Assembly (NCBI GenBank): GCA_013001595.1
Contig: JABDMH010000008.1
Span: 1-64,000, forward strand
DNA: 64,000 nt
DNA from: Saprospiraceae bacterium
GTDB lineage: Bacteria > Bacteroidota > Bacteroidia > Chitinophagales > Saprospiraceae
Direction of reading: 5' to 3'
Position 1 is the first letter of the stretch. The number at the start of each line of letters is the position of its first letter. A model generated the notes under the pieces. That model saw only the letters and a program-made list of their open reading frames with translations. It did no database searches and had not been told where the DNA came from. The position numbers and the translations under genes were made by a program. Shown one piece after another: positions 23,007-39,460 of this stretch.

Positions 23007-23111
23007 TGTAGGCTAACCAAGGAGCGTTTCCATCCTCACCGATGGGAGTGTGATTGCTATGGACATTGGCTTCAATTGTGTATTTTAGGCTTTGATCAGC
23101 TAATAATCGCA

Positions 23112-25175
23112 ATGCAAACAATATTGCCTACAGCTTGCCTTGCCGTCGTTTTTTCCGCGATATTTTTTATGCACGGCATTAAAGCTCAACAAGGAACTGC
23201 CACTTTATTTGAAGATGATTTTTCATTGCTGCCTTCTGGAAGACTGTCATCTGACCATGGAGCGCATACAGAATATCACTTCACTGAATCCTGCCGACCC
23301 ATTGGCAGCTGGCAAGTGAGCAGCTTTGATCACGATCGAGAATCTCAGATAGCTTGGAAGGTCTTCACTCACCAGGACGAGCGAGTGATGGCCCAGACGG
23401 TGCACTATCCAAAAAGATTTACCCATCCTATGGTTACCGCTGGAGACTCACTTTGGCAAGATTATAAGGTAGAGCTAAGACTTTCAGCTCCTGATACTGC
23501 GCAGACGGGAATTTGCGTGCGTTACCAAAATAGTCGATGTTATTATTTTGTTGGCCTCTATCAAGGTGAGGTCGTAATAAAAAGGGTCAATCATGCTTCC
23601 GCACTATACCGCCCCAATGAGGTAGTGCTGGCTTCCCGTGAATTTGTCATGAATCGCAAGGCATTTTTCAACTTGGTCATCTCCCTCAATGGCGAGCAAA
23701 TTTCCGTGGAACTTCCCGATGGATCTATGTTATCGGCATTGGATCCTACTTACCATCGAGGAAAGATTGCCTTACTTTCTGATGGTCCTGCTTATTATTC
23801 AAAGGTAAAAGTTACCAGTACAGAAGAGGAACATAATGCCTTTATCGATCGTGTCGGAATAGTCGCTCAGGAGGAGAAGGCCCTTCAGATGGAAAACCCC
23901 GGCATGAAACTGTACAAGAAATTTGGCATCCAAGGTTTTGGAGTAGGTAGAAACCTGAGGTTTGGTGATTTAAATAATGATGGGCAACAAGATGTGTTAA
24001 TTGGTCAGGTGGTTCATCATGGACCTCAAGACGCTTTTAGCGAATTGAGCTGTCTGACAGCAATGACCTTAGATGGGGAGCAACTATGGCGTATTGGCAA
24101 GCCCGATAACTGGAAGGATCACCTTACAAACGATGTGGCTTTCCAGATCCACGACCTTGACGGAGATGGGAAGACGGAAGTGGTTTACTGCATGAAAGAG
24201 AAGATTATTGTGGCTGCAGGAGCAACCGGCATCACGAAATATGAGGCTCCAACTCCGCTTGCTGGTTTGAATGCACTGGAACGGAGACGTGCACTGATTG
24301 CACCGGATCGCATATTGGGTGATTGCCTCTATTTTGCAGATTTCCGTGGACTGGGTCATGATCGTGATATTATTATTAAGGACCGCTATAGGCAGTTTTG
24401 GGTGCTTGACGATCGTCTACAGTTACTATGGAAGGGGAGCGGCCAAAATGGACACTATCCCTATGCCTGGGATATCGATGACGATGGGAAAGACGAACTT
24501 GCTATGGGGTATTCCCTCTATGATGATACCGGTAAACAATTGTGGACTCTTGATGACACCTTGACGGATCATGCGGACGGTATTGCACTCGTAAAGCTCA
24601 AGCAGGACCAACCTTATAGGGTGGTTTGTGCGGCTAGTGATGAAGGTATGTTTTTTGCAAACCTGGATGGAGAGATTTTGCAACATCATTTTGTAGGTCA
24701 TGCCCAAAATCCCATCATAGCCAATCTGCGTGATGATCTTCCTGGACTAGAGTCTTTATCGATCAATTTTTGGGGCAATCAAGGAATAATTAATCTATAC
24801 GATGGTGATGGTGGGCGCTACAAAGAATTTGAACCTGTACAACATGGGAGTATGTGTCTGCCCATCAGTTGGAATGGATCTACCGAAGAGTTCTTTATTC
24901 TATCGCCAAATGTAGAGCAAGGTGGACTCTATGATGGTTGGGGTCGGAGAGCGGTACGATTTCCCGATGACGGCCATCCAGATTTATGCAATGCCGTATT
25001 GGATGTAGTTGGCGATTCACGAGATGAAATAATTGTTTGGGACACTAAGGAAGTTTGGATATATACACAGGATGATGGTCCGCAGGAAAATCCATATAGA
25101 CCCATTCGAAATCCTATGTACAATTATTCCAACTATCAAACAACGGTGAGTCTTCCTCCGGAGTTCTTGAACTAA
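23112..25175 (+). CDS. secreted beta-propeller protein with N-terminal laminin/DUF1080-like domain
   Basis: About 687 residues from the ATG at 23112 (MQTILPTACLAVVFSAIFF..., signal peptide ending IKAQ); an upstream ATG at 23076 is less likely. Residues 25-230 resemble a concanavalin-type carbohydrate-binding domain (DDFSLLPSG ... WQDYKVELRLSAPDTAQTGICVRYQ ... YYSKVKVTS). The rest is an FG-GAP-like propeller with Ca-binding loops: FGDLNNDGQQDVLIGQ, IHDLDGDGKTEVVY, WDIDDDGKDELAMG, VVGDSRDEIIVWD. It ends IYTQDDGPQENPYRPIRNP. The propeller and C-terminal tail recall PL11 rhamnogalacturonan lyases, but I cannot assign that family with confidence. It is probably a polysaccharide-binding or -cleaving enzyme outside the cell. 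Confidence 0.7.
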   Translation: MQTILPTACLAVVFSAIFFMHGIKAQQGTATLFEDDFSLLPSGRLSSDHGAHTEYHFTESCRPIGSWQVSSFDHDRESQIAWKVFTHQDERVMAQTVHYPKRFTHPMVTAGDSLWQDYKVELRLSAPDTAQTGICVRYQNSRCYYFVGLYQGEVVIKRVNHASALYRPNEVVLASREFVMNRKAFFNLVISLNGEQISVELPDGSMLSALDPTYHRGKIALLSDGPAYYSKVKVTSTEEEHNAFIDRVGIVAQEEKALQMENPGMKLYKKFGIQGFGVGRNLRFGDLNNDGQQDVLIGQVVHHGPQDAFSELSCLTAMTLDGEQLWRIGKPDNWKDHLTNDVAFQIHDLDGDGKTEVVYCMKEKIIVAAGATGITKYEAPTPLAGLNALERRRALIAPDRILGDCLYFADFRGLGHDRDIIIKDRYRQFWVLDDRLQLLWKGSGQNGHYPYAWDIDDDGKDELAMGYSLYDDTGKQLWTLDDTLTDHADGIALVKLKQDQPYRVVCAASDEGMFFANLDGEILQHHFVGHAQNPIIANLRDDLPGLESLSINFWGNQGIINLYDGDGGRYKEFEPVQHGSMCLPISWNGSTEEFFILSPNVEQGGLYDGWGRRAVRFPDDGHPDLCNAVLDVVGDSRDEIIVWDTKEVWIYTQDDGPQENPYRPIRNPMYNYSNYQTTVSLPPEFLN

Positions 25176-25413: not shown

Positions 25414-26472
25414 CTATTTCCTAAAATGTCCTTGGATAAAACTTATGTTATCATACTCTGGCCATCCAGACCAGCCCATCCAAAAAGAATGATCTTCACT
25501 ACCGAGGAATTTCCCTGGAATCATATAGTTGAATTTGACGTGGTCATCCAGAAATTTATTTTCATAATAAATGGTTGACCAAGGACCCCATGGATAGGGT
25601 GCATCGAAAATACCCAGTCCAGACATGGTGCTTTTTGGTGCAAAGGGGGTCATCCGGTCATCATCAAAATCATAGTGTGGTTTACATAAGACTATCCGAT
25701 TAAAATCCGGGTGAAGAAAGGCACTTATATGCCATAAGTAAGCTTGGTTATCATGGAACACCGCAGATTTTCGATGATGGCTCTTATGCCAAGATGCAGA
25801 TCCATCTCCATTCAAATGAGTGAACCACTCATAGGCATCTTCTTCAAATATGTGTTGTTGATCAACCCTAGCAAGGTATAGATCTGGATGTCGATTGTAT
25901 CCAAAATAGATGTATAGATATCCATCCATTGCCCTCGAGTTTGCTTTGCCAAATTGACATATTCCCCGCACTCGGAAACCTGCCGGAAGATTTGAAAATA
26001 TGCGATCTGTGCCTAGTGTCCATGTTAGTCCCTGATCGTACGACACCGCAGCATATGAATCATCATCATACTTACTATCGCCATTGACCCAAAACATGTG
26101 AATGACATCATGCACAGCCACCAAAGCATCTGGTTTGCCAAAACTTTGTCCCATTCCGGCTCCCCATGTATCCTCCGCAGTTAACGAAGGTGGAAAACCG
26201 GAGATCTTACTTACACCGATCGATCTTTTTCGGGTGGTTTTTGCAGTACCGTTCCAACCATAGCCATCTCCCCATGATGCTACCAAGGTGCCATCTGAAC
26301 TCCAAGTCATTGGCCACTGATCACTTCCAGAACCAAAGGTCAGCACCGTTGAAGTGTCAAAGGTGACTTCACGGATTTTCTGGCTAGCAGGATAAGGAGG
26401 ATTTTGGGCATTAACCTGACCACACAAGGCAATGGCAATCATCACGAGCAACAGACTTGCTAGTTTCAACAT
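25414..26472 (-). CDS. secreted DUF4185-like propeller protein
   Basis: 352 residues with a signal peptide (1-22, GQVNAQ). The opening TFGSGSDQWPMTWSSDGTLVASWGDGYGWNG and the blocks SIGVSKISGFPP, GKPDALVAVHDVIHMFWV, YAAVSYDQGLTW, DGYLYIYFGYNR, and GLGIFDAPYPWGPWSTIYY match what I remember of DUF4185/five-bladed-propeller glycosidase-like proteins. No catalytic pair can be assigned. It lies 3 bases after the stop of the upstream ASPIC/FG-GAP gene, so it is the last gene of that operon, followed at once by a strong hairpin. It probably binds or processes the glycan handled by the SusCD unit. Confidence 0.6.
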   Translation of the reverse strand: MLKLASLLLVMIAIALCGQVNAQNPPYPASQKIREVTFDTSTVLTFGSGSDQWPMTWSSDGTLVASWGDGYGWNGTAKTTRKRSIGVSKISGFPPSLTAEDTWGAGMGQSFGKPDALVAVHDVIHMFWVNGDSKYDDDSYAAVSYDQGLTWTLGTDRIFSNLPAGFRVRGICQFGKANSRAMDGYLYIYFGYNRHPDLYLARVDQQHIFEEDAYEWFTHLNGDGSASWHKSHHRKSAVFHDNQAYLWHISAFLHPDFNRIVLCKPHYDFDDDRMTPFAPKSTMSGLGIFDAPYPWGPWSTIYYENKFLDDHVKFNYMIPGKFLGSEDHSFWMGWSGWPEYDNISFIQGHFRK

Positions 26473-26475
26473 GTG

Positions 26476-29400
26476 CTAATTATTAGCTATGATACGTACT
26501 TTAGAAGCACCTTGGTAGTATGTCAATGAGTCCTGAAATGGAAGCTTTGCAATGCTATTACTGGACTGGGATAGAAATCCCTGGCCATAGTACCGTTCAA
26601 TTTTTTGCATGCGACCGTCCCGGTCATATAACAGGGCAAAATCTTCATCGGGTAAGAAATCAGATCTGATTCTTCCTGGGGATTGGGTTTGGTAAATTGC
26701 CATTCGATCATTGTTACGTCCTGCCAGAATCAGCCAATGGCCTTGATGTGGAAACCCAACAAGTCCACGTCCCTCTCCTTTGACAAAGAACCCGCTTTCC
26801 ATTGATGATACACCAGTAAAATGACCATTGCCATCGCCTTTCAGTAGCAACCCTTTTTGAGCATTGTGCCAGCCCGAGATGACTTCTGTCTGCCTACTAT
26901 TTCCGATGGTCGCTATGTCTAAATATCCATCCGCATCTACATCAGTGATGTGTATGCCATATACAGGGCTCAATTGTACCTCTGAAGGAAGTGCTTTAAC
27001 CTGGAATGTACCATTGCCCAAATTTTCGATAATGGAAGACTGCATATGGCTTGCTTCGAAAATCTCCATGTGCTCAGTATGTACAACGTTCAGGATGGCA
27101 GTCATATCAGATTCAGCAAAGGATTGATAGCTTGGAAATTTATATTTAAGTACTTCAATTTGTTCAATCAATGCACCCCTTGGAGCGATGGGATATTCTA
27201 TGTCACCAATATACCGGGAAAAAATTGCGTCTACCGTAGCGTTTTCATCAAAGTCTCCCACATACATCCGCAGTGGTTTTTCATGACTGGCCTTCCAGGA
27301 GGAATTTAGCCCTAAATTTCCAGCGACATAATCTATATCACCATCTCGATCAAAATCTCCTCCTGCAACACTATTCCACCAGCCTGGATATTGGTTCAGT
27401 GTTTCCGAATGAAATTCAGTCAATTTACCGGCTACATTTTCCAAGAGTGTAGGGGCCATCCACTCACCGACCAGCAATAGATCATGATCATAATCATTGT
27501 CAAAATCTGTCCAAAGAGCAGCAGTAACCATTCCTATATTTCTCAGATTTGGTGCCACTTCGTCGGTCTTATCTACAAACAGTCCGGATTCATTAATTAG
27601 TAGATAATTGTTTGGGGATTGCGGATACTTGCCAGGCACAAGCCTTCCACCAACGAATAAATCAAGATCACCATCAGCGTCATAATCTGAGGCGACCACA
27701 CAAGAACCACTGGATTCTATTATTGGTAATTTTCCCTGATCGAGGATTAACTGCCCATTCTCATCATTGACATAAAGGCGATCCTGATAATGGCCTTTAC
27801 TAAAGTACTTGATGCTACTTCCGCCACTCACGACATAAAGCTCTTCATTTCCATCTCCATTACTATCGAAGAATAAGGCACCCATGTCTTCGAAATAAGC
27901 ACTATTGGCCAACGTGTCAATCGACCAGCTGTTGTCTTTAATATTGATGATGGTGCTGGCTTGACCTCGAGCACCGCCTAAAAATATGCGTCGCGAACCG
28001 TCTTGGTCAGGATTCGAAACGGCGATTCCCGGACCAAAATTATCATATTGTTGCAAGAGCAAAGGTTGATATCGAAATTCGTTATTTCTGTTTTCAGTAT
28101 GCTGGTAGCTAATATTCCATTTATCGGATATCTCAGCCAATGCAGGTTGGTCGAAAGAATCAGTGCTGATACTTTTTTCCTCAATTTGTTTTGAGAATTC
28201 GATTTGCAAAAGGGTGTCTATTGGAAGATGGTAGAACCATTGACCTTGACCACCAGGCCAGGTTATTTTGATAGAATCGATTTTTTCTATCTGCCCCAAA
28301 CCTATATGAAGTGGTGCTGCGATAGATGACATGTATCCATGTATTGGGTGCAGTAGTACCTCTTTCATCGTATGATTGGGCAGGTACAAAGAGACCTTGC
28401 TACCAATGGCGTCTTTGTTTTGCTGTGGTCCTGTAAGATCGATTTTTATATAATGTCTATTTTCATCAGGCAACGTATTATTATGATATAGAAATGCTGG
28501 TTGATCAATATTATTTACGGTGATTTCTAGGTCTCCATCATTATCCAGATCAGCATAAGCTGCCCCATTTGATAGTGAAGGTCTTTGTAGGCCCGACGAC
28601 TTTGTTACATCCTTGAAGGTGAGGCTACCCATGTTTTTATATAAATAGTTGGAAATATTCACAGAATTTAGTGTCATTAATTCTTTGACGAAATCGGGGA
28701 TGGAGAGTTGTCCTGATCCTTCCTGAAATATGTCCTTCTGTTCAGTGTATTCTTGGAAATCATGATTGGTCACATCTCTACGAATTCCATTTGTAATGTA
28801 AATATCATTGCTGCCGTCGTTGTCGAAATCAGCAATGAGCGGGCTCCAACTCCAATCGGTCTGATGTAATCCAGAAAATCTGGCAATTTCCTGAAAGTGG
28901 AATTCGCCATTTGGGTTTTTTCCTGCATTTAATTGCAACGTATTGCGAATAAATTGGGGCGCAAATCCACGTTCGGTGGTTTGTCTGAAATGAGCATAAT
29001 TCATCTTGGAGGTCATGGTCTTTTGCCGTTCATTATCTTGTGGCAGCATGTCTAAGATGAAAATGTCTTGTAGTGCGTCATTATTTATATCTGCTACGGC
29101 AATCCCCATGGCATTTCTTGAACATTGATCGAAGTAGTCATGTAGTTTATTAGTAAAAGTGCCGTTTCGATTATTGACATACATGAGATCACTGCCTAAG
29201 TAGTCATTAGCTACATAGATGTCGGGCCAATCGTCATCATTCACATCCAATATTGCGAGACCTAGGCCATATCCTTCAATCAATATGCCGGCACTATCAG
29301 ACACGTCCCGGTATAAGGGATGTCCATTTTTCTCAATCCCTATGTTTTGGAACAGTCGATCAGTACTGGGGCCTCTACCATCCTTGTGGGTATATAGTTT

Positions 29401-30003
29401 ACTCAGCATTTGATAGGATTCGTTGGCATGCTCCATCACGTAGAGGTCCAAATCTCCATCACGGTCATAGTCTAGAAAAGCAGCTTGCGTGGAATAATGA
29501 TCATCATCAATGCCATATTCTTTAGCAGACTCAGTGAAAGTCAGATCATGATTATTGACAAAAAGTAGATTTGTACGTTGTGGAGGATCGGCAAACCCAC
29601 CAACGCAGAGGTATATGTCCATCCAGCCATCGTTGTTAATGTCTATACACGACACACCGGTCACCCATCTCTGCGTATTTAAGCCAGCAGACATGGTTAT
29701 GTCCTTAAATTCAAGATTTCCTTGGTTGACGTAGAGCTTGGAGGATACCATATTTCCAGAAAAAAAGATGTCTTCCTTCCCATCATTGTTAAAATCAGCA
29801 ATACCAACACCAGCTCCAGTGTAGATGTAGGGAAAGTTGAAGTAGTGGATGGAATCTGATTCAGTTAGGGTATTGGCAAATGTGATTCCTGAGTCTGACG
29901 GTTCAACCAATTGGAAAAGAGGAGTCTTTGCGGGCTGACTACAAGCAAGCATGAGCACAATAACGTGGACCACCAGTAGTAAATGTAAGTGAAGAGGTCT
30001 CAT
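26476..30003 (-). CDS. CRTAC1-like FG-GAP/ASPIC lipoprotein, second copy
   Basis: 1175 residues. The signal ends MLAC21 (lipoprotein). FG-GAP/VCBS repeats with DxDxDG-type Ca loops fill residues 60-510 (IADFNNDGKEDIFF, DINNDGWMDIY, DYDRDGDLDLYV, ADFDNDGSNDIYI, ADLDNDGDLEITV). An ASPIC/UnbV domain lies at about 520-600 (IDLTGPQQNKDAIGSKVSLY ... HIGLGQIEKIDSIKITWPGG). A second propeller set runs from about 650 to 1150. This is the CRTAC1-like architecture, expanded in Bacteroidota and often beside SusCD. Its function is unknown; it may be a surface adhesin or glycan-handling scaffold. The start codon overlaps the upstream gene's stop by one base (TGATG), implying translational coupling. Confidence 0.9.
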   Translation of the reverse strand: MRPLHLHLLLVVHVIVLMLACSQPAKTPLFQLVEPSDSGITFANTLTESDSIHYFNFPYIYTGAGVGIADFNNDGKEDIFFSGNMVSSKLYVNQGNLEFKDITMSAGLNTQRWVTGVSCIDINNDGWMDIYLCVGGFADPPQRTNLLFVNNHDLTFTESAKEYGIDDDHYSTQAAFLDYDRDGDLDLYVMEHANESYQMLSKLYTHKDGRGPSTDRLFQNIGIEKNGHPLYRDVSDSAGILIEGYGLGLAILDVNDDDWPDIYVANDYLGSDLMYVNNRNGTFTNKLHDYFDQCSRNAMGIAVADINNDALQDIFILDMLPQDNERQKTMTSKMNYAHFRQTTERGFAPQFIRNTLQLNAGKNPNGEFHFQEIARFSGLHQTDWSWSPLIADFDNDGSNDIYITNGIRRDVTNHDFQEYTEQKDIFQEGSGQLSIPDFVKELMTLNSVNISNYLYKNMGSLTFKDVTKSSGLQRPSLSNGAAYADLDNDGDLEITVNNIDQPAFLYHNNTLPDENRHYIKIDLTGPQQNKDAIGSKVSLYLPNHTMKEVLLHPIHGYMSSIAAPLHIGLGQIEKIDSIKITWPGGQGQWFYHLPIDTLLQIEFSKQIEEKSISTDSFDQPALAEISDKWNISYQHTENRNNEFRYQPLLLQQYDNFGPGIAVSNPDQDGSRRIFLGGARGQASTIINIKDNSWSIDTLANSAYFEDMGALFFDSNGDGNEELYVVSGGSSIKYFSKGHYQDRLYVNDENGQLILDQGKLPIIESSGSCVVASDYDADGDLDLFVGGRLVPGKYPQSPNNYLLINESGLFVDKTDEVAPNLRNIGMVTAALWTDFDNDYDHDLLLVGEWMAPTLLENVAGKLTEFHSETLNQYPGWWNSVAGGDFDRDGDIDYVAGNLGLNSSWKASHEKPLRMYVGDFDENATVDAIFSRYIGDIEYPIAPRGALIEQIEVLKYKFPSYQSFAESDMTAILNVVHTEHMEIFEASHMQSSIIENLGNGTFQVKALPSEVQLSPVYGIHITDVDADGYLDIATIGNSRQTEVISGWHNAQKGLLLKGDGNGHFTGVSSMESGFFVKGEGRGLVGFPHQGHWLILAGRNNDRMAIYQTQSPGRIRSDFLPDEDFALLYDRDGRMQKIERYYGQGFLSQSSNSIAKLPFQDSLTYYQGASKVRIIANN

Positions 30004-33000
30004 CAGAATGGGTTCTTATTGTTGGTCGAGTTAAGCATGAAAGATTGAATCGAATCATTGTTGCAGCCAACCACCACAGTATAATTATCACCAACCTGCA
30101 CTCTGACCAGGCTTTTGACATCCTTGGGAATCATAAAGCCACTGGCCGCTGGTGAGAGCGAAGTGAAAGAACCATTGCCATCACCTAGTAGAACTAAACC
30201 CAAACTGGCATCGTTGCGTACGGTTTCAACTTCACTACCATACATATTTCCTCCCAGTATGAGATCGAGATTATTGTCATGGTCGATGTCTTTAATCAAA
30301 ATTCCATTGACAGCAGAAAATTGTGCCTCAGCGGGCAAAGAGTGATGTAGAAAATCACCACCGCCTACATTTTCTAAATAGATGCTATTAAAAGTATATG
30401 CCTTGTGGTGAAGGGAATTTTTTAAATCGATTTCACTGTAAATCTCGGTAAGTGATGCTGATGCAAAAGCTGTGTAGGAGGGAAACTCCTTTTTTATGAT
30501 GGGCATTTGTTCTGCCGAACACTGACGACCCCTGAGGGGAAATAGCTCGCCATTGTCAAAATAACCCAGCACAATATCGATGGATCCATTGTCATCAAAA
30601 TCATGTGCGAAAACTTGAAAAGGTTCGGTTAAGGAAGCTTTGTATTTATAATTGGTCCCTAGATTGCCCATTACGTAGTCTAGATCGCCGTCACTATCCA
30701 TATCTGCTTGAGCCAGGGAATACCACCATCCATGGGTGCTATCTAGGGATGCATTTACTTGTCTATGCCATTTGCCTTCTACATTTTCTAGAATAGTAAT
30801 GGGCATCCATTCACCCACCAACATGAGATCTTGATCTGAGTCACCATCAAAATCGGTCCATTGTGCATCCGTCACCATACCGATTTCGATAAGGTCCGGT
30901 GCAATTTGGCTGGTGATATCTTCATAAGTGTGTCCGTTATTAATCAATATTTGCGAAGAAACGGGAAAAGGATATTTCCCTGGAGTTTGTCTCCCTCCGA
31001 TAAATAGATCAATATCTCCATCTCCGTCTATATCATCGGGCCGAACAATTGAGCTACTAAGAAATCTTTTAGGCAACACACTTTGGTCCCGTTTGAAGTT
31101 TCCATTTCCATCATTCAGATACATCCGATCCTCAAGCATGGTTATGTTGTCTTGATCATTCCCTCCACTTGCCACATAGAGATCTAAATCTCCATCCAGG
31201 TCAAAGTCAAAAAATGCAGCACCCATGTCTTCGTATTTGGCGTCTGCTGACCAAGGATTATGACGCTGTACGAAAGCACCATCTTTAGTTTGTAAAAAGA
31301 GTGCTCCCGATTGGTTCTGGGCGCCACCGATGTATAGATCATCGAATCCATCGGCATTGACATCTCCAACGGTTAAGTATGGACCTAGTCTGGAATACCT
31401 GTGTGGGAGCAGTACCTCTTTCTCAAAATCATTAAAACTGTTCTCCTGATGTTGCCAATTTAGTGAGGTGTATCTTTTGAAAAAGGGCTTATGCGGTTGT
31501 CGATTTGGTTGCCTATTGGCAACAGATGTTTGCTGAACGATTTCAATGGTTTGATCAGCAGACACATCAGTAAGCACTTGGATACTCCCATTAGGCCAGG
31601 TAACCACCACCGAGTCAACCACTGAGGAAGAACCCAAACCAAAATGCAGCATGGGTGCTACCGATGATTGAAATCCCCGGCTGGTTTGTATGTGTTGAAA
31701 TTGCTGAAGTTGTCCGCAAGAGATCCTGGCTTTAGCACCGATGCCAAAGATATTGTCAATTGTTCCCCGCAGTTTAATTTGTAAAAAATGTGCATACTCC
31801 TGCGCACTGTTTTCGTAGATACGAGCTTGATCATCTATATTATTCAGTACCACTTCAAGATCGCCATCACCATCCAGGTCGGCATAGGCAGCTCCTGTAG
31901 AAAATCCTTCATGGTCTAAACCCCAGTTTGATGTAACATTTTCAAATAGATAAGATCCTGAATTTCTAAATAGAAAATTCATCATTTTTTGTGAAGGTAG
32001 ATTATTGACTATGTGCATAGGATTGTCACGTGGATCTATGTTCTTTTGTTGTAGATCATAGCGCAGGTCTTTATACTGAATATCTCTCCTTATCCCATTG
32101 CTGACAAAAAGGTCTTTCCAGCCATCATTATCAAAATCGGCAAAGAGTGGCCCCCAGCTCCAGTCCGTCTCCGCAACACCTGAATATTCGGCAATTTCAC
32201 TAAAGAATGCTACTCCTCGATTGAGCTGCAGTGTGTTTTGCATATATTGGTAGTGATATCCTCCGTCTACCATTTTTCGAAAACGTTCTACATCCATACT
32301 TGCCATCAATGCTTTCTTGCGGTAGTTGTCGGCAGATTGCATGTCGCACACCATTAGATCCACCCAGCCATCGTTATTGAAATCAGCTGCATCAGAACCC
32401 ATGCTACTAAAAGAAGTATGCGGCATTAGATCTTTGAGTCGATTGACAAAAGTTCCGTTTTGCTGATTGACATAAAGGAAATCTGGTTCGAAAAAATCAC
32501 TGGCTGCGTAGATGTCTGGATATCCATCGCCATTAAAATCTGCAATGGCCGCACTAAGACCGAATGCAAAATGATCAATGCCTGCGGCTTTGCTCACATC
32601 TTCGAAATGTCCATTTCCTTGATTAAGGTATAGCTTATCTCGTTCTTCATCGGAGGGATTGTCTATGGTAAAAAGGGCCTCTTGATTTTCGAAAAATCGC
32701 TTCGAATGATTGACCAGATACATATCTAGATCACCATCTAAATCGAAGTCAAAAAAGTAGGACTGAACAGAATATCCATTGTCATTGAGTCCAAAAGCTT
32801 TAGCTTGCTCTTGAAATTTTCCATTTTGAAGATTGACATAGAGAAGGTTGTGTCGGTAGGAGCCCATTCCAGATCTGCAGACATAAATATCTAGCCACCC
32901 ATCATTATTGATGTCAACCATGGTTACACCAGTTGTCCAGAGGTTACTACTAAGTATGCCACACTTGGTGGTAACGTCATCAAATGACAAGTTGCCCAGA

Positions 33001-33302
33001 TTTTTATAAAGACGATCTCCAACCATATTCCCAGTAAAGAAGATATCGGGCAAATCATCATTGTCCAGATCTCCAATAGCTACACCACCACCATTGTAGT
33101 AGTATGGGTATAAAACGATATTTGCTTCTTTTGTCTCTTTAAGCTCGTTCTTGAAGGTAATACCGGTCTTTTGTTCGTGAATCTCGTTGAAGAGATGATT
33201 TTTTTGGAAAGTCGAAGAATCCTTGACTTGGCAACTAGCTAGCCACAGGGCCATTATGGATGGTAGAAAAAAGATTGCAGATTTCCTTGATGTGCTTAAC
33301 AT
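30003..33302 (-). CDS. CRTAC1-like FG-GAP/ASPIC lipoprotein, first copy
   Basis: 1099 residues with the same domain order as its downstream neighbour: a lipoprotein signal ending LASC24, N-terminal FG-GAP repeats (IGDLDNDDLPDIFF, DINNDGWLDIYV, FDFDLDGDLDMYLV, ADFDNDGWKDLFV, ADLDGDGDLEVVL), an ASPIC/UnbV block (IKLRGTIDNIFGIGAKARISC ... HFGLGSSSVVDSVVVTWPNG) and a second propeller set. Shared segments such as TDWSWGPLFADFDNDGWKD mark the two genes as tandem paralogues, though they are well diverged. No T9SS sorting tail is present, so lipid anchoring is the likely surface attachment. It starts 159 bases beyond the SusD stop, behind a terminator-like structure, so it may be expressed by read-through or from its own weak promoter. 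Confidence 0.9.
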   Translation of the reverse strand: MLSTSRKSAIFFLPSIMALWLASCQVKDSSTFQKNHLFNEIHEQKTGITFKNELKETKEANIVLYPYYYNGGGVAIGDLDNDDLPDIFFTGNMVGDRLYKNLGNLSFDDVTTKCGILSSNLWTTGVTMVDINNDGWLDIYVCRSGMGSYRHNLLYVNLQNGKFQEQAKAFGLNDNGYSVQSYFFDFDLDGDLDMYLVNHSKRFFENQEALFTIDNPSDEERDKLYLNQGNGHFEDVSKAAGIDHFAFGLSAAIADFNGDGYPDIYAASDFFEPDFLYVNQQNGTFVNRLKDLMPHTSFSSMGSDAADFNNDGWVDLMVCDMQSADNYRKKALMASMDVERFRKMVDGGYHYQYMQNTLQLNRGVAFFSEIAEYSGVAETDWSWGPLFADFDNDGWKDLFVSNGIRRDIQYKDLRYDLQQKNIDPRDNPMHIVNNLPSQKMMNFLFRNSGSYLFENVTSNWGLDHEGFSTGAAYADLDGDGDLEVVLNNIDDQARIYENSAQEYAHFLQIKLRGTIDNIFGIGAKARISCGQLQQFQHIQTSRGFQSSVAPMLHFGLGSSSVVDSVVVTWPNGSIQVLTDVSADQTIEIVQQTSVANRQPNRQPHKPFFKRYTSLNWQHQENSFNDFEKEVLLPHRYSRLGPYLTVGDVNADGFDDLYIGGAQNQSGALFLQTKDGAFVQRHNPWSADAKYEDMGAAFFDFDLDGDLDLYVASGGNDQDNITMLEDRMYLNDGNGNFKRDQSVLPKRFLSSSIVRPDDIDGDGDIDLFIGGRQTPGKYPFPVSSQILINNGHTYEDITSQIAPDLIEIGMVTDAQWTDFDGDSDQDLMLVGEWMPITILENVEGKWHRQVNASLDSTHGWWYSLAQADMDSDGDLDYVMGNLGTNYKYKASLTEPFQVFAHDFDDNGSIDIVLGYFDNGELFPLRGRQCSAEQMPIIKKEFPSYTAFASASLTEIYSEIDLKNSLHHKAYTFNSIYLENVGGGDFLHHSLPAEAQFSAVNGILIKDIDHDNNLDLILGGNMYGSEVETVRNDASLGLVLLGDGNGSFTSLSPAASGFMIPKDVKSLVRVQVGDNYTVVVGCNNDSIQSFMLNSTNNKNPF

Positions 33303-33382
33303 GATCCTATAGAATTAAATATAGATCAATATTTCTGCTTGTACTGAGGTAAAATAAACTTTCATATGCTGAACACACCATC

Positions 33383-33409
33383 TTTGTCCGCACCGTCAGT
33401 ACGGACAAA
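33383..33409 (-). other. second hairpin adjoining the SusD terminator
   Basis: TTTGTCCG (33383-33390) and CGGACAAA (33402-33409) form an 8-base stem with an 11-base loop. It directly follows, and slightly overlaps, the T-run of the terminator hairpin on the transcribed strand. It may stabilise the 3' end or modulate read-through into the tandem ASPIC genes. Confidence 0.5.
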
Positions 33410-33437
33410 AAAAGCCCAACCAAGTAGGCTGGGCTTT
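33404..33437 (-). terminator. intrinsic terminator after susD
   Basis: On the minus strand, AAAGCCCA and TGGGCTTT form an 8-base stem (33411-33437 with loop) followed by seven T residues (33404-33410). It starts 24 bases after the SusD stop codon, so it fits a terminator or attenuator between SusCD and the downstream ASPIC genes. Confidence 0.8.
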
Positions 33438-33460
33438 CATAAAGAATGGTTCTTGCAAAT

Positions 33461-34951
33461 TTAATTTGGATACTGGGTCAGATTTTCCATTAGATCCAAT
33501 TCAGCATTTGGTACTGGCCAATACTCATGACGGCCCACGACATATCCCAGAGGCCCTAAGACTTCAGCGGCAAGGCCCCATCGTTGCAGGTCATAGAATC
33601 GCTGTCCTTCGAAAACTAATTCACGTCTCCTTTCCTCTCGGATCGATTGACGCAATGCATCTTGACCGGTCTCCGTAAATTCCGGAGCTTGTGCTCTACG
33701 ACGTATCATATTAACAAGTTCAAGTGCTTCCGCAGAGTTACCGAGTTCATTTTGGGCTTCGGCCAAGTTCAATAGTACCTCGGCATAGCGCAGGATGATA
33801 AAATTAACGTCAAAGCTATTGGCTTGTGTCATGTTCTTACCTTCTGGTAGCCACTTTCGCGTGTTGGCACCATTGAAATAACTTGAATTCATATTTCCAG
33901 AAGGAAATTGTTCACGAATGCCGTCGCCATTAGTATCTATCGAGTCGGGCGGGTTGGCGTCAACCACAAGAACACTGGCTTTTCGTCTTATATCACCTTC
34001 CTCAAACTGCTGATAGGATCCGGGACTAGGAGAATACCAATTGGCCCATCCTATTACAGGACTCCAGTGAATACTGTAAAAGTTTTCTGAACTGGCACCC
34101 CAGAAACCAGGTGCCTGTGCCACAGATTGATACTCCAAAATGGACTCAACACTGTTTTCATTATTGCCATTGAATAGAGTGATATACTCTTCTGAGGGAA
34201 CGAGCTGATACGTCCCTTGATTGACTACAGCCATGGAGGCATTAACAGATTCCTGCCACTTATTTTGGTACATGTAAATCCTTCCAAGTAGGGCGTTTGC
34301 AGCACCTTTGGTGGCCCGCCCAACTGGGTCTCCAGCTTCAATCGGAAGGACAGCAGCAGCATCTATCAGATCCTGTTCCATTTGAGCATAAATTGTATTC
34401 TTATCGGTCCTGGCCAATTCATTGTATTCTTCTCTACTCAGCACAGACGTCACAAAAGGAACATCTCCAAATGCATTGACGAGATTATGATAGAATAAGG
34501 CCCGTAAGAATTTGGCCTCTCCAGCAAATCTCGCCTTTAGACTTTCGTCCATTTCGATATCGGGTAATTTCTCGAGGAGGATGTTCGCCCTGAAGACACC
34601 CTTATAGCCATCGTACCAGCGCGCCGTAGAAAAAGGATTACTCGGTTCCCAGCGATAGTCACTCCCTGCCCGAAAGTATGTCCCGTAGTCTCCATTATCA
34701 CCGGTGAGTTCATTAATGTCATCACTGATGGCATCACCCAAAAGTACAATGGCCTCTCTGTACAGACCTTTCTGACTAATGATGTCGTAAACAGCTGTCA
34801 AAGCTTGCTCCGCGTGCGTTTCATTTAGGAAGAAATTGGCATCCACCACGCCATTCTTAAATTCCTTGGTCACAAATTCTTCTCCACAAAAGACGAAGAC
34901 CATAGCCACAAGGCTAAGGACTAAGAGTTTTAAATTTGATTTATAATGCAT
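33461..34951 (-). CDS. susD: SusD/RagB-family glycan-binding lipoprotein
   Basis: About 496 residues from the ATG at 34951 (MHYKSNLKLLVLSLVAMVFVFC), where the lipobox Cys22 follows the hydrophobic run; the ATG at 34957 is an alternative, and the far upstream one at 34999 would overlap susC. The family pattern is clear: NETHAEQALTAVYDIISQ, a TPR-like helical core (AKFLRALFYHNLVNAFGDVPFV, ATKGAANALLGRIYMYQNKW) and the C-terminal NFIILRYAEVLLNLAEAQNELG ... IREERRRELVFEGQRFYDLQRW. SusD lids the SusC barrel at the cell surface and presents the ligand. It begins about 20-25 bases after susC, and a terminator follows it. Confidence 0.95.
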   Translation of the reverse strand: MHYKSNLKLLVLSLVAMVFVFCGEEFVTKEFKNGVVDANFFLNETHAEQALTAVYDIISQKGLYREAIVLLGDAISDDINELTGDNGDYGTYFRAGSDYRWEPSNPFSTARWYDGYKGVFRANILLEKLPDIEMDESLKARFAGEAKFLRALFYHNLVNAFGDVPFVTSVLSREEYNELARTDKNTIYAQMEQDLIDAAAVLPIEAGDPVGRATKGAANALLGRIYMYQNKWQESVNASMAVVNQGTYQLVPSEEYITLFNGNNENSVESILEYQSVAQAPGFWGASSENFYSIHWSPVIGWANWYSPSPGSYQQFEEGDIRRKASVLVVDANPPDSIDTNGDGIREQFPSGNMNSSYFNGANTRKWLPEGKNMTQANSFDVNFIILRYAEVLLNLAEAQNELGNSAEALELVNMIRRRAQAPEFTETGQDALRQSIREERRRELVFEGQRFYDLQRWGLAAEVLGPLGYVVGRHEYWPVPNAELDLMENLTQYPN

Positions 34952-34976
34952 GATCATTCTTTTAAATCTTTTTAAA

Positions 34977-37900
34977 TTAAAATCCAACATTAAGGCCAAA
35001 GGACCATGATCTCACCTGTGGGTAGAGATCTTGATAAATGCCTGCAACGGCACTATTACCTTGATCAAAACCAACTTCTGGATCTATGCCCGTGAATTTG
35101 GTTAAAACAAATACATTTTGGCCGGACACGTAAAAACGGGCATTCGTCAATCCTATCGATTGAAGTACCGATTGAGGAAGGTTATATCCCAGTTGAAGTG
35201 TACGGAGTCTTAGGTAAGATCCATCTTCAACCAAGTGATCTGCCAATGTGATGTTTTGATTGGGGTCTTGAACGTTGGGTCTGGGTATGCTGTTACTTGA
35301 CCCTGCTCCATTCCATGCATTAACCACCGAAACGCTCTTATTGTATGCTCGTCCCGATGCCTCTAACTGAGAGCGCGCTACGTTAAATATATCATTACCA
35401 GATACACCAAAGAACTGGAAGTTCATATCAAGCTGCCCATAGCGAAGGTTACCTCCAAATCCATAGGTGAAAGAGGGAATCGGACTACCTACTATTTCCT
35501 TGTCGTTGTTGTCAACTTTCCCATCTCCATTTAAGTCCTTCCATTTCCAGTCTCCAGGTGCGGTACCTGCGTTTTGGTATGGTGTTCCGGGTTCCCCGTC
35601 GATGGCATTAGCGGCATCAACTTCAGCTTGTGTTTGAAACAACCCGTCAGATCGTCTTGCCAAGAAGACACCCAAGGGTTCTCCGGGACGAATGACAACC
35701 GTCGCTCCTGCTCCTGAATAGCTGAAAGCCACGATTTCCTCCAAGCCCCCTAAATCCACGACTTCACTGTTCATCGTCGAGAGGTTGGCATTAAAATCAT
35801 ATTGGAATTTACCGATGGCATTTTGATACCCTGCTCCAAACTCAAGGCCACTGTTAACCACTTCACCCACATTTTGTACCGTAGTCCCTAGGCCCGAGAC
35901 ACCCGGTAGTGGAAGAACCAGTAACATATCTGTTCTGGAGCGGTTGAAGTACTCGGCACTAAGTGTCAGTCGGCCATCGAGAAATCCCGCATCAAATCCG
36001 AAGTTATATTCAGTTGCTGTTTCCCATCGAACATCGGGATTGGCTAAATCCTCTAGGGCTGCACCCAGCGATGACGTTGCTGTTTGATTCCCAAAGCCAT
36101 AGTCAAAGTCTGTGCTTAATCTCGCTAGATAGCGGAAGTTACCGATGGCATCAGAGCCAACCTGTCCCCAACCCCCACGGACCTTCAGGTCTGTGAGGAA
36201 ACCGGGTGTGAAAAAATCTTCTTGGGATATTCTCCATCCAACCGTGAAGGATGGGAACACACCAAACTTGTTGGCGGGACCAAATTTTGAAGAACCATCC
36301 CTTCGAACGGCTGCAGTCAGAAGGTACTTGTTGTCATAGTCGTAGGATATCCTGCCAAATATCGAAGCCAGCGATTCCTCAGAGCTGCTGCTCGTGGTAT
36401 TCAATTGGGCTGCACCGTTGACGATCTCCGTAAAAACGTTGGTCGTATAGGCCGCAGTAGCATTAAAGCCACTACCTTCAAACTCCTGGGCGGAAGTACC
36501 AGCCGTTAGGACAAAATTGTGGTCACCTACACTCTTGGCGTAAGTGAGTATGTTTTCCCAAGACCAGAATAATGAGTTTGATCGTGATTGGTTGATCGAA
36601 GATAGTCCACCTGAATTTAGCAGCCCTTCTTCCCATATCGGCGTATATGAATAGTTGTTATCGGTTTGAATATCTGCTGAAAATGAGGTCCTTAGCGTAA
36701 GACCCTTAATCGGGGATATATCGATATAGACATTGCCTAAAATTCGATCAGTACTATTGTCACGAGTAGGAAGCATGTATTGTGAATGCAGGTTGCGTCG
36801 TCGTTCCAGTCGGGTATCGGTAGGTCCGGCATAGCCTGAGGTCGAAGTTTCATCGAATATCGGTTGCGTGGGTAGCGCTTGATATACATTCGTAAATGCA
36901 CCGTGGATGAATGTACGATTACCAGCATTGTTGTCAAAACGCGAACCGCGGCTGTAGGTCAGACTATTTCCAATTTTCACGCCCTTGGTGATGGTGTTGT
37001 CCGTATTGGCTCGAAAAGAAAACCTGCGCTGAAAAGTCTCCATCATGATGCCATCATTGTCGAAGTAATTGAAGGACACGTAGTATTTGTGTGCTTCTGA
37101 GCCACCAGAAACTGCCAATTGATGGTCCGTAATGAAGCCATTAGTGACGATTTCATCCATGTAGTTCACTCCTTCACCAAGAGATGCAGGATTAGGAAAT
37201 GGAGCCTCTTCACCAGCAGCAGTAAAGGCCCTATTCATATTCTCGGCAAATTCAGTAGCGTTCATCGGCCGTGGAATATTACTTACAGGTTCTTGTACTC
37301 CCACGTATGCATTGTAGGTCACTGACGGTTTACCAACCTTTCCGCGTTTGGTAGTGATTAGTACAACCCCATTGGCAGCCCGAGCACCATAGATGGCAGT
37401 CGATGCCGCATCTTTAAGGATGTCAATGGTTTCGATATCATTAGGATTGATGGTTACTAGCGGGTTTGAGTTCTCATTGTTACCAGCACCCACAATGACT
37501 CCATCGATCACATAAAGGGGGTTACTGTTGTTGATTGAGCCAGCTCCACGGATTCTTACAAAGACACCACCTCCAGGCTGACCACCGTTGGTGGTCACAT
37601 ATACACCGGGTACTTTACCTTGTAGTGCCGCATCAAAACTTGGAGTGGCTACTTTACTAATTTCCTCGGCACCCACGGAGACAATTGACCCGCTCACATT
37701 GCTTTTCTTTTGTGTGCCATAACCTACCACTACTACTTCATCTAATGCAGCTATATCTTCATCCATCTGCACAGATAAACTGGTACGACCCTCCAGTTGC
37801 ACTTCTTGTGTGCGGTATCCCGTGTAGGAAATTTCTATAATACCATTGACGTCAGGCACATCAAGACTAAAAGCACCGGATATGTCCGTAGCTGTTCCGA

Positions 37901-38066
37901 TGGAAGTCCCTTTCATAGACACAGTAGCACCGATCAGAGGTTCCCCCGCCTGGTCAGTAACGGTGCCTGAGATCTGAGTTTGTGCCTGCAAGCTCGCAAA
38001 GCCGGCAAACAGGATAAACATGCCCATGAGCCGTGCTATCCCTTTTTGTAAGTTAAGGTTTCTCAT
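34977..38066 (-). CDS. susC: SusC/RagA-family TonB-dependent outer-membrane transporter
   Basis: 1029 residues, a usual SusC length. It has a signal peptide (1-28, ASLQAQ), a CarboxypepD-regulatory-like domain (about 30-110, ISGTVTDQAGEPLIGATVSMKG), a TonB-box-like LDEVVVVGYGTQKK, and a plug domain (about 120-225, GVYVTTNGGQPGGGVFVRIRG, NPLYVIDGV, ILKDAASTAIYGARAANGVVLITTKRG). A long beta-barrel ends in aromatic LNVGF. It imports oligosaccharides with TonB energy. Paired with susD downstream; a divergent AraC-type regulator starts about 450-540 bases upstream. No extracytoplasmic-sigma/anti-sigma pair is present here, so regulation through the AraC protein is the likeliest route. Confidence 0.96.
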   Translation of the reverse strand: MRNLNLQKGIARLMGMFILFAGFASLQAQTQISGTVTDQAGEPLIGATVSMKGTSIGTATDISGAFSLDVPDVNGIIEISYTGYRTQEVQLEGRTSLSVQMDEDIAALDEVVVVGYGTQKKSNVSGSIVSVGAEEISKVATPSFDAALQGKVPGVYVTTNGGQPGGGVFVRIRGAGSINNSNPLYVIDGVIVGAGNNENSNPLVTINPNDIETIDILKDAASTAIYGARAANGVVLITTKRGKVGKPSVTYNAYVGVQEPVSNIPRPMNATEFAENMNRAFTAAGEEAPFPNPASLGEGVNYMDEIVTNGFITDHQLAVSGGSEAHKYYVSFNYFDNDGIMMETFQRRFSFRANTDNTITKGVKIGNSLTYSRGSRFDNNAGNRTFIHGAFTNVYQALPTQPIFDETSTSGYAGPTDTRLERRRNLHSQYMLPTRDNSTDRILGNVYIDISPIKGLTLRTSFSADIQTDNNYSYTPIWEEGLLNSGGLSSINQSRSNSLFWSWENILTYAKSVGDHNFVLTAGTSAQEFEGSGFNATAAYTTNVFTEIVNGAAQLNTTSSSSEESLASIFGRISYDYDNKYLLTAAVRRDGSSKFGPANKFGVFPSFTVGWRISQEDFFTPGFLTDLKVRGGWGQVGSDAIGNFRYLARLSTDFDYGFGNQTATSSLGAALEDLANPDVRWETATEYNFGFDAGFLDGRLTLSAEYFNRSRTDMLLVLPLPGVSGLGTTVQNVGEVVNSGLEFGAGYQNAIGKFQYDFNANLSTMNSEVVDLGGLEEIVAFSYSGAGATVVIRPGEPLGVFLARRSDGLFQTQAEVDAANAIDGEPGTPYQNAGTAPGDWKWKDLNGDGKVDNNDKEIVGSPIPSFTYGFGGNLRYGQLDMNFQFFGVSGNDIFNVARSQLEASGRAYNKSVSVVNAWNGAGSSNSIPRPNVQDPNQNITLADHLVEDGSYLRLRTLQLGYNLPQSVLQSIGLTNARFYVSGQNVFVLTKFTGIDPEVGFDQGNSAVAGIYQDLYPQVRSWSFGLNVGF

Positions 38067-38515: not shown

Positions 38516-39460
38516 ATGTTTGTAATTTATAGAAAAAAAAGCAGTAGAATTGCTACCTTATGCGGGGAAGAATTTATTGAATGTCATTGCAGATTTGATG
38601 TTGGTTTGAAACTACGGCTAATAGATAGAAGCTTAGGGCACAAGAGGCCCTTCGTCGTTAAAGAAAAGCGCTATCCTAATTTCTTGAAGATCTGGCATTA
38701 CCATCCCGAACTGGAATTGGTAGTGATCAAGGAAAGTGTAGGTACTCGGTTTGTTGGGGATGGTATTGAAAAATTTAGGCCAAATGAGGTAGTATTGATT
38801 GGAAAGAACTTACCACACATGTGGCAAAATGATGAAGAGTATTTTCAACCCAACTCCGGATTAATGGCATCAGCCTTGAGCATCCATTTCAGAGAGGATT
38901 TTGTGGGTAGTGAATTCTTGCAGCATTCTTCCGCTCAACATCTTTTAGAGCTATTTGCAAGAGCTAAGAGAGGCATCAAGTTTAACAACTTGCGTTTTCC
39001 TGTTCAATCAGCAATCCAGCAGTTGATGCAGGAAAAAGATGACTTTCAAAAGCTAATCAAACTTCTGTTGATATTACATCAACTGGCAAAACATAGTGAC
39101 ACTTCCTTCCTATCAAGTGAAGGCTACTCGAATACCAGAATCAGTGAGGTGTCGGATAGCATACATGAGTACATCTTCGAAAACTTCAATCGCCCTATTC
39201 GTCTGGAGGATATTGCGGCTATTGCAGGAATGAACACCTCTGCGTTTAGCCGCTATTTTAAGAGGATTCATCGTAAGACTTTCTCCAGATATTTGATTGA
39301 AATACGCATTGGATATGCCTGTAAATTGTTGATGGAGAATAAGAAAAGTATAAGTTCCATCTGTTACGAATCTGGTTTCAACAATTTATCCAATTTTAAT
39401 AAGCAATTTCTGAAAGTAAAACAGATGAACCCTTCACAGTATATTCGCCTACATCGATAA
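38516..39460 (+). CDS. AraC-family transcriptional regulator
   Basis: 314 residues from the ATG. An N-terminal cupin-like sensor (FLKIWHYHPELELVVIKESVGTRFVGD ... EVVLIGKNLPHMWQND) is followed by a C-terminal double helix-turn-helix (PIRLEDIAAIAGMNTSAFSRYFKRIHRKTFSRYLIEIRIGYACKLLMENKKSISSICYESGFNNLSNFNKQFLKVKQMNPSQYI). The first 30 residues do not look like the family; a TTG at 38606 gives the usual start MKLRLIDRSLG and is probably the true one. The sensor type usually binds a sugar or sugar derivative. The divergent position makes susC and its operon the likely target, inferred from context. Confidence 0.88.
   Translation: MFVIYRKKSSRIATLCGEEFIECHCRFDVGLKLRLIDRSLGHKRPFVVKEKRYPNFLKIWHYHPELELVVIKESVGTRFVGDGIEKFRPNEVVLIGKNLPHMWQNDEEYFQPNSGLMASALSIHFREDFVGSEFLQHSSAQHLLELFARAKRGIKFNNLRFPVQSAIQQLMQEKDDFQKLIKLLLILHQLAKHSDTSFLSSEGYSNTRISEVSDSIHEYIFENFNRPIRLEDIAAIAGMNTSAFSRYFKRIHRKTFSRYLIEIRIGYACKLLMENKKSISSICYESGFNNLSNFNKQFLKVKQMNPSQYIRLHR

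Follow-up and report, generated by a model that had tools for sequence, protein, structure and literature searches.

A SusCD operon with two putative double-propeller ASPIC lipoproteins at the SusE/SusF position in a Saprospiraceae bacterium

On balance we think it probable that the operon analyzed here serves nutrient uptake by SusCD and that its two double-propeller ASPIC lipoproteins, which are old and inherited together, take the place that SusE/SusF or another surface glycan-binding protein (SGBP) has in classical operons. It lies within a window of 64,000 nucleotides from contig JABDMH010000008.1 of a Saprospiraceae bacterium, and its ASPIC genes stand at the susE/F place behind susD.

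The operon and its proteins

An earlier note on this DNA had claimed the order susC, susD, a terminator-like hairpin, two ASPIC/FG-GAP genes overlapping at TGATG and a DUF4185-like gene, and this order was borne out (Table 1). The SusC protein is additionally matched by TIGR04057 (63.1 bits) and by the Plug, barrel and CarbopepD_reg_2 profiles, and this receptor of the SusC subfamily adjoins a SusD-family lipoprotein, forming a SusCD transporter pair. The susD open reading frame opens at a TTG codon, and the real start is probably an internal ATG near position 34957; a cysteine is found within the segment VFVFCGEEF. P0002 and P0001 share one base, and P0003 begins 3 bases past the P0001 stop codon. 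By its position, the AraC-type protein is a candidate local regulator. Outside the operon the window has an RGL11_C match at 23076-25175 on the opposite strand and a sulfatase at 20080-21519; among the five proteins of the operon no CAZyme family scored above its curated Pfam cut-off.

Table 1 Features of the SusCD-ASPIC operon and its flank, with positions in the window.
Feature	Position	Strand	Description
P0003	25414..26472	-	DUF4185-like, 352 aa, N-terminal signal-like stretch; PF13810 30.6 bits, E 2.6e-7
P0001	26476..30003	-	Diverged ASPIC/FG-GAP paralogue, 1175 aa; FG-GAP_3 205.2 bits, ASPIC 54.8 bits; weak lipobox MLAC
P0002	30003..33302	-	ASPIC/FG-GAP protein, 1099 aa; FG-GAP_3 235 bits, ASPIC 78.2 bits; lipobox LASC
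Terminator-like hairpin and U tract	33413..33437	-	Begins 23 nt past the susD stop, in the susD-P0002 spacer
susD	33461..34999	-	SusD-type lid lipoprotein; PF07980 132 bits, PF14322 89.8 bits
susC	34977..38066	-	SusC-type TonB-dependent outer-membrane transporter, 1029 aa; TIGR04056 893 bits (cut-off 368)
AraC-type regulator	38516..39460	+	Divergent from susC; HTH_18 70.8 bits

Both P0002 and P0001 show an FG-GAP propeller followed by ASPIC, with PF13517 and PF07593 above cut-off, which places them in the UnbV/ASPIC (CRTAC1-like) family. The two proteins are 40% identical in the alignment and carry the ASPIC domain in mid-protein (residues 520-586 in P0002 and 532-599 in P0001), leaving 512 and 576 residues downstream, respectively, which contain a second FG-GAP propeller, so that the architecture of both is propeller - ASPIC - propeller (below called long). 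The predicted structure of P0002 (pLDDT 81.2, pTM 0.81) was aligned in a fold search with murine CRTAC1 (9etn) at Z 41.7 over 461 residues with an rmsd of 2.5, and a sequence search of the PDB with P0002 likewise gave CRTAC1 as its sole relative. The predicted fold joins a second propeller to a CRTAC1-like core: mouse CRTAC1 shares the propeller and ASPIC core with P0002, whereas the solved CRTAC1 chains of 551-586 residues are too short for a second propeller. CRTAC1 is not known to carry a lipid anchor.

The lipoboxes of P0002 and P0001 were spotted by eye; a strict lipobox pattern matched 25/47 long proteins. A cysteine occupies the lipobox column in 37/39 SusCD-linked sequences vs. 30/37 unlinked copies, which is not a significant difference (p 0.08), and the idea that a lipoprotein difference separates linked from unlinked copies was dropped.

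P0003 aligns to positions 127-225 of the 309 of the DUF4185 profile only. Since its score falls under Pfam's curated 39.5 bits, "DUF4185-like" is the right wording for a protein that matches part of a profile whose members, DUF4185/GH183, are endo-D-arabinofuranases according to PMC10115798. At E 1e-10 the only relatives among 198 genomes were P0003 itself and one protein from its own genome, on contig C160. The single-sequence model (pLDDT 36.5) was too poor for a fold search, and the sole PDB sequence matches, to steroid monooxygenase at E about 0.009, were taken as chance. A search of NCBIfam returned no name for P0001, P0002 or P0003.

Recurrence of the SusD-ASPIC pairing

ASPIC domains were present in 51 of the 119 genomes of a class-wide sample, giving 141 matches, from which one in G084 was dropped (a frame with a stop) and among which one G025 protein with two matches was counted twice. 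In this sample a gene was called linked when a SusD gene preceded it on its own strand by no more than 5 kb; genome-wide SusD counts used PF07980 only, scored for at most ~17 candidates per genome, and for the class neighbourhoods we used SusD profiles of our own. In the SusD-bearing genomes 17/25 clusters of the long architecture were linked, where 0.24 were expected from first-look PF07980 candidate counts, and 15/21 when the window's own genome was removed. Counted by gene in the same genomes, 25/38 long vs. 1/41 other ASPIC genes were linked. Over the whole class sample only 1/93 of the other architectures was linked, ruling out that all ASPIC proteins accompany SusCD. Eight of the 25 long clusters were unlinked, and 9/47 long ASPIC genes came from genomes devoid of any PF07980 SusD, none of the nine having a SusD upstream.

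In a second sample, taken from the window's own order and leaving out G000 and G034 (both in the class sample), the genes were sorted by open-frame length rather than by architecture, and 5/43 long ASPIC genes in SusD-bearing genomes were paired with SusD, where 0.23 were expected from the matches listed. For the remaining 38 no PF07980 SusD was present within 10 kb upstream on the same strand. The sample comprised 43 long clusters, 20 with sequence and the others judged from coordinates; among the sequenced clusters SusC and SusD directly preceded ASPIC in two (L167 and L184), and in L170 a SusC was found upstream and no SusD was detected. In the window's order the pairing is thus enriched, yet confined to a minority. 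Four ASPIC genes whose length falls outside that of the long class (4/37 other genes overall), all in G143, were also near SusD; these cases blur the architecture rule and weaken the statement that only the long class accompanies SusCD.

It is clear that the co-occurrence of CRTAC1-like genes with SusCD is not random, which was the refuting outcome named in the earlier note. The repeated association proposed there stands as an enrichment in both samples; it is facultative, and the class sample shows it almost exclusively for a single architecture. Because many long ASPIC genes stand without SusD, SusCD is not needed for long ASPIC function.

We picked 26 loci for having a long ASPIC gene no more than 6 kb downstream of a SusD gene. 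The ASPIC open reading frame began at most 321 nt from the SusD stop in 23/26, and SusC was seen in 25/26. Distances between SusD proteins correlated with those between ASPIC proteins (r 0.732, n = 23, with 0/5000 permutations as high, species kinship being ignored). The SusD of the window is 77, 76, 68 and 65% identical to those of L020, L019, L021 and L026, respectively, and at most 33% identical to the next three among the matches listed. P0002-type and P0001-type proteins form separate clades (SH-aLRT 100), and both types recur behind SusD in L019 and L021, whose second copies together with P0001 make up the P0001 clade. A recent tandem duplication is ruled out, as the two genes fall into different deep clades, each with members from other loci. 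L025 bears a P0002-type gene, and no SusCD was seen upstream of it.

The hairpin behind susD lies in an 81-nt stretch with a fold z of -6.98, and a second hairpin of 12-13 bp follows at about 33383-33410. A similarly placed hairpin, 13-31 nt past susD, was found in 11/20 susD-ASPIC spacers (60 shuffles gave a mean of 0.1 and a maximum of 3) and was absent from the other 9; in 5 of the 11 at most 30 nt remain between the hairpin and the next open reading frame.

Competing explanations

A vanadium haloperoxidase (VHPO) is the other recurrent neighbour, and it might be the primary partner: the long ASPIC proteins would serve a surface process of an oxidative or halogen-related kind, and SusCD would have been added in some lineages for import of the product. 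An ASPIC domain was at most 5 kb away for 14/35 VHPO relatives of the class sample (0.27 expected) and for 13/23 of the order sample (0.33 expected), and the pairing persisted where PF07980 had no match in the genome (G003, G048, G083 and G112). The protein aligns to 4cit (E 5.8e-137), a Zobellia iodoperoxidase, with its K-x6-RP, SGHS and SR-GGIHY active-site segments retained. Among 19 VHPO proteins K-x6-RP was present in all, while the strict PAP2 patterns P[ST]GH and SRx5Hx3D were missed in 17/19 and 19/19, respectively; we regard these misses as an issue of the patterns because a 14-row alignment shows SGHS and SR-GGIHY conserved, and both segments align to 4cit. For four VHPO relatives submitted, NCBIfam gave no name. 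The VHPO profile matched 4/20 sequenced order clusters (L171, L172, L181 and L182). Against a primary role speaks that the query had been picked for its ASPIC neighbourhood, that VHPO is absent from the window's own locus, the own-genome copy lying on a contig (C90) free of ASPIC, and that none of the 16 class-sample matches under 250 bits was near ASPIC. Moreover, 6/13 near pairs of the order sample are on opposite strands, 2/13 are closest to a shorter ASPIC frame, and VHPO was seen in at least 8/26 SusCD-ASPIC loci (loci ending at 20 kb or at contig ends). We consider this explanation distinctly unlikely. A combined proposal, which we put forward as doubtful, is that double-propeller ASPIC proteins form a class of their own among SusCD accessory subunits and work with VHPO in part of the Bacteroidota, SusC-SusD-ASPIC(1-3)-VHPO being an oxidative uptake module for halogenated or oxidised polymers at the cell surface.

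The long ASPIC protein could instead be an enzyme, with an active site in the C-terminal propeller as in aldos-2-ulose dehydratase, processing a sugar or oxidised product before uptake by SusCD. The C-terminal propeller matches that enzyme at Z 28.9 over 351 residues, and in the C-terminal half of 76 sequences non-calcium polar residues including H618, E620, E831, W859, W860, Q932 and Q994 are conserved. However, many unrelated propellers score alike (LGI1 EPTP 30.9, WD40-type proteins around 24-26), and the conserved Trp, Gln and Glu also fit structural or binding roles; we hold the enzyme reading to be unlikely. Finally, the ASPIC genes could simply hitch-hike in SusCD operons, for instance as general adhesins under shared regulation, which would agree with the facultative and lineage-dependent association. 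Enrichment in two samples, the correlated divergence, the near-constant place directly behind susD and the co-inheritance of both paralogues make such a purely genomic neighbourhood very unlikely in our view.

Proposed role and related systems

For a SusCD operon with ASPIC proteins at the SusE/SusF or SGBP position the following mechanism may be envisaged. The ASPIC lipoproteins would sit on the outer membrane alongside the SusCD pair, presumably surface-exposed and in complex with it, and their Ca-loop propellers would catch a polymer, perhaps a glycan, or its fragments and pass it to the SusD lid, while the DUF4185-like protein, presumably secreted, would trim the ligand. The AraC regulator would control the operon, and read-through of the hairpin would let part of transcription pass, leaving SusC and SusD in excess over the propeller proteins. 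Two sugar-binding proteins, PVL and tachylectin-2, are among the propellers of the VCBS superfamily (PMC8023676).

According to PMC7618045 the levan and dextran utilisomes contain SusCD, one binding protein and one glycosidase, and SusE/SusF and surface glycan-binding proteins are likewise lipoproteins encoded beside susCD. SusE/F-type binders are multi-domain proteins of another make, whereas P0001 and P0002 have a Ca-loop propeller on either side of a CRTAC1-type ASPIC domain, and binding is their presumed role. DUF1735, at the susE/F position, and BACON have likewise been assigned to SusCD operons by gene neighbourhood, being near SusD in 98% (DUF1735), 38% (BACON) and 28% (BACON_2) according to PMC11216935; different distance rules underlie these percentages and our values of 25/38 (class) and 5/43 (order). 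The same paper describes an Ig-like fold, in contrast to the propellers of long ASPIC proteins. A limited literature search found no earlier report of an ASPIC role beside SusCD.

With one ASPIC architecture assigned to the susE/F position, a large unassigned family acquires a function that can be tested, and, if true, complexes of the utilisome type would no longer be limited to the binding proteins known from work on gut species; the VHPO link offers a second concrete experimental handle. Among the neighbours scanned in the SusCD-ASPIC loci, glycosidase families were found in several: GH65 in L074 and L147, GH5 and GH35 in L148, GH30 in L143, GH3 in L149 and a melibiase-like protein in L122.

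Architecture of the window operon

The layout claimed in the earlier note, with susC, susD, a terminator, two ASPIC genes and a third gene, was borne out by coordinates, Pfam and NCBIfam, and its DUF4185-like assignment of the third product, P0003, stands as a Pfam profile match that scores under the curated cut-off.

Features of the SusCD-ASPIC operon and its flanks
Feature	Positions	Strand	Remarks
AraC-type regulator	38516-39460		divergent from susC
susC	34977-38066	-	Pfam and NCBIfam confirmed
susD	33461-34999	-	Pfam and NCBIfam confirmed
terminator-like hairpin	susD-P0002 spacer	-	between susD and P0002
P0002	30003-33302	-	FG-GAP_3 repeats and one ASPIC, well above cut-off
P0001	26476-30003	-	FG-GAP_3 repeats and one ASPIC, well above cut-off
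P0003	25414-26472	-	DUF4185 match, below curated cut-off
RGL11_C-like protein	23076-25175	+	other flank; converges on the operon; FG-GAP matches weak
sulfatase	20080-21519	-	past the RGL11_C-like gene

In a search at E 1e-10, none of the 197 order genomes besides its own gave a match to P0003; its only relative was found on contig C160 of the same genome, which also has a SusCD-ASPIC set. Four of the six DUF4185 matches in this genome lie on ASPIC-bearing contigs (C54 twice, C160 and C103).

According to Pfam the ASPIC domain covers residues 520-586 in P0002 and 532-599 in P0001, leaving 512 and 576 residues C-terminal of it, respectively. A structure model of P0002 built from a 16-row alignment (pLDDT 81.2, pTM 0.81) was matched by murine CRTAC1 with Z 41.7 over 461 aligned residues ranging from 34 to 1047 in the model, and the match would correspond to the N-terminal half of P0002. 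By sequence, CRTAC1 is the sole PDB relative at E 0.01. In the fold search residues 604-1099 resembled many propellers, with LGI1 EPTP ranking first (Z 30.9); aldos-2-ulose dehydratase scored Z 28.9.

Association of long ASPIC genes with SusD

The earlier note proposed a repeated association of such lipoproteins with SusCD, and we tested this by counting co-occurrence. ASPIC was present in 51 of 119 class genomes with 141 matches, 140 of which were mapped to ORFs and classified by architecture, the long class being defined as 1080-1230 aa with 498 or more residues following ASPIC. In SusD-bearing class genomes a SusD gene was found within 5 kb upstream on the same strand for 25/38 long genes and for 17/25 long clusters, where 0.24 clusters are expected from SusD density, and the association is not random. 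These 25 clusters come from ten genomes including that of the window, without which 15/21 clusters remain linked. No SusD was found upstream of the nine long genes in class genomes without PF07980, the SusD profile. The other architectures pooled gave 1/93, and this single case adjoins a long gene.

Within the window's order (32 genomes, judged from coordinates alone), PF07980 SusD, the only SusD family counted, lay within 10 kb upstream on the same strand of 5/43 long-frame genes against 0.23 expected, and of 4/37 other ASPIC genes (0.16 expected), the four all belonging to genome G143; an additional five long and six other genes sit in order genomes without PF07980. Thus the association is above chance in the order as well, but as a minority trait, and its confinement to the long architecture is not a strict rule. 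The exceptions are shorter-frame genes near SusD on G143 contig C11, two of the four behind a long one. At locus L170 (8373-17744) a 411-aa gene and SusC were seen upstream of a long ASPIC gene on the same strand, with no SusD detected.

Six ASPIC proteins, from four loci, are encoded in the window's own genome. SusCD precedes three of these six, namely the window pair and the C160 copy, which make up two of the loci. At L015 (contig C138, 3022-12551) a weakly esterase-like gene, below the Pfam cut-off, sits between two long ASPIC genes, and a 495-aa FG-GAP gene comes after them; no SusCD was seen there, the contig beginning only 3 kb upstream. On contig C54 (L016/L017) a long ASPIC gene is divergent from a double SusCD set, with DUF4185/DUF5005 genes next on its strand.

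Inheritance and the hairpin after susD

In a quick-method tree of 79 ASPIC rows with SH-aLRT support, a 7-row clade (support 100) unites P0002 with the copies nearest SusD at L019, L020 and L021 and with further copies from L022, L025 and L026, and a 3-row clade (support 100) unites P0001 with the second copy at each of L019 and L021. SusD of the window shares 77% identity with that of L020, 76% with L019, 68% with L021 and 65% with L026, the next loci being at 33 and 31%. With species phylogeny not removed, SusD and ASPIC distances correlate with r 0.732 over 23 loci (none of 5000 permutations as high, the highest 0.418), SusC and ASPIC distances with r 0.748 over 20 loci, and SusC and SusD distances with r 0.941. 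In the neighbourhood examined at L025 no SusCD was seen upstream of the P0002-type gene, which counts against strict pairing.

A terminator-like hairpin starts 13-31 nt past the susD stop in 11 of 20 susD-ASPIC spacers shorter than 700 nt, compared with a mean of 0.1 and a maximum of 3 in 60 approximate dinucleotide shuffles; by this pattern it is absent from the other nine, L019 and L020 included. At L137, L165, L167, L147 and L027 only 10-30 nt are left before the next ORF, taken from its first start codon. Since this gives little room for a promoter, read-through is the simplest explanation for the expression of these five ASPIC genes. The window spacer retains 108 nt after the hairpin, so that P0002 may have a separate promoter. 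A second hairpin of 12-13 bp (33383-33410) follows directly, part of the U tract being common to both.

Possible roles and the haloperoxidase neighbour

Because of the gene position, the likely lipid anchor and the fold, we propose that the two ASPIC proteins would capture ligand for SusCD, with binding, complex and substrate all putative. The lipobox column is Cys in 88% of 76 long sequences. In the levan and dextran utilisomes SusCD is described as bearing additional lipoproteins at the lip of SusC (PMC7618045), and VCBS-superfamily propellers are described as including sugar lectins (PMC8023676). The main rival explanations are a catalytic role of the ASPIC proteins, or a primary role with a vanadium-haloperoxidase relative (VHPO). 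Residues outside the calcium loops are kept at 85% or more in the 76 long sequences, for example T379, W381-W383, H618, E620, E831, W832, W859, W860, Q932 and Q994. CRTAC1-family genes are also described next to hydrazine-synthase-like genes (PMC12758564). In the open-licence PMC literature, outside which such reports may exist, we found none linking UnbV/ASPIC to SusD, CRTAC1 to polysaccharide utilization or vanadium-dependent haloperoxidase to SusD, and none on the subject of FG-GAP/VCBS/ASPIC together with SusC/SusD, where sparser mentions could escape.

The VHPO is a PAP2-superfamily family of approximately 440 aa adjoining long ASPIC genes, with 15 members in the loci examined. The member searched matched PDB entry 4cit at E 5.8e-137, a record titled vanadium-dependent haloperoxidase, which we take to be the Zobellia enzyme. 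With a query chosen for being an ASPIC neighbour, 14 of 35 VHPO matches in the 119 class genomes (E 1e-20) had an ASPIC domain at most 5 kb away, each time on the same strand, where 0.27 are expected; the near ones make up 14 of the 19 matches of at least 250 bits and none of the 16 weaker ones. The order sample gave 13/23 within 5 kb against 0.33 expected, seven on the same and six on the opposite strand, two being nearest to a shorter ASPIC frame; counted by ASPIC gene, 11/48 long and 4/43 other genes had a VHPO within 5 kb. VHPO was seen in 8 of 26 SusCD-ASPIC loci (L074, L121, L137, L146-L149 and L165). It is absent from the window, and the VHPO of the same genome is on contig C90, without ASPIC there. 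In the order sample the four best-scoring VHPO matches (G131:C53, G143:C53, G119:C279 and G000:C90), which share 55-57% identity with the query, sit on contigs without a detected ASPIC domain, in contrast to many relatives. A vanadium iodoperoxidase of Zobellia is described as raised on Ascophyllum (PMC9296495). In the SusCD loci L074, L086 and L147 the ASPIC genes are followed by related genes of 679-692 aa; those of L074 and L147, the two scanned, are assigned to GH65 by Pfam, and in both of these loci the VHPO gene comes next.
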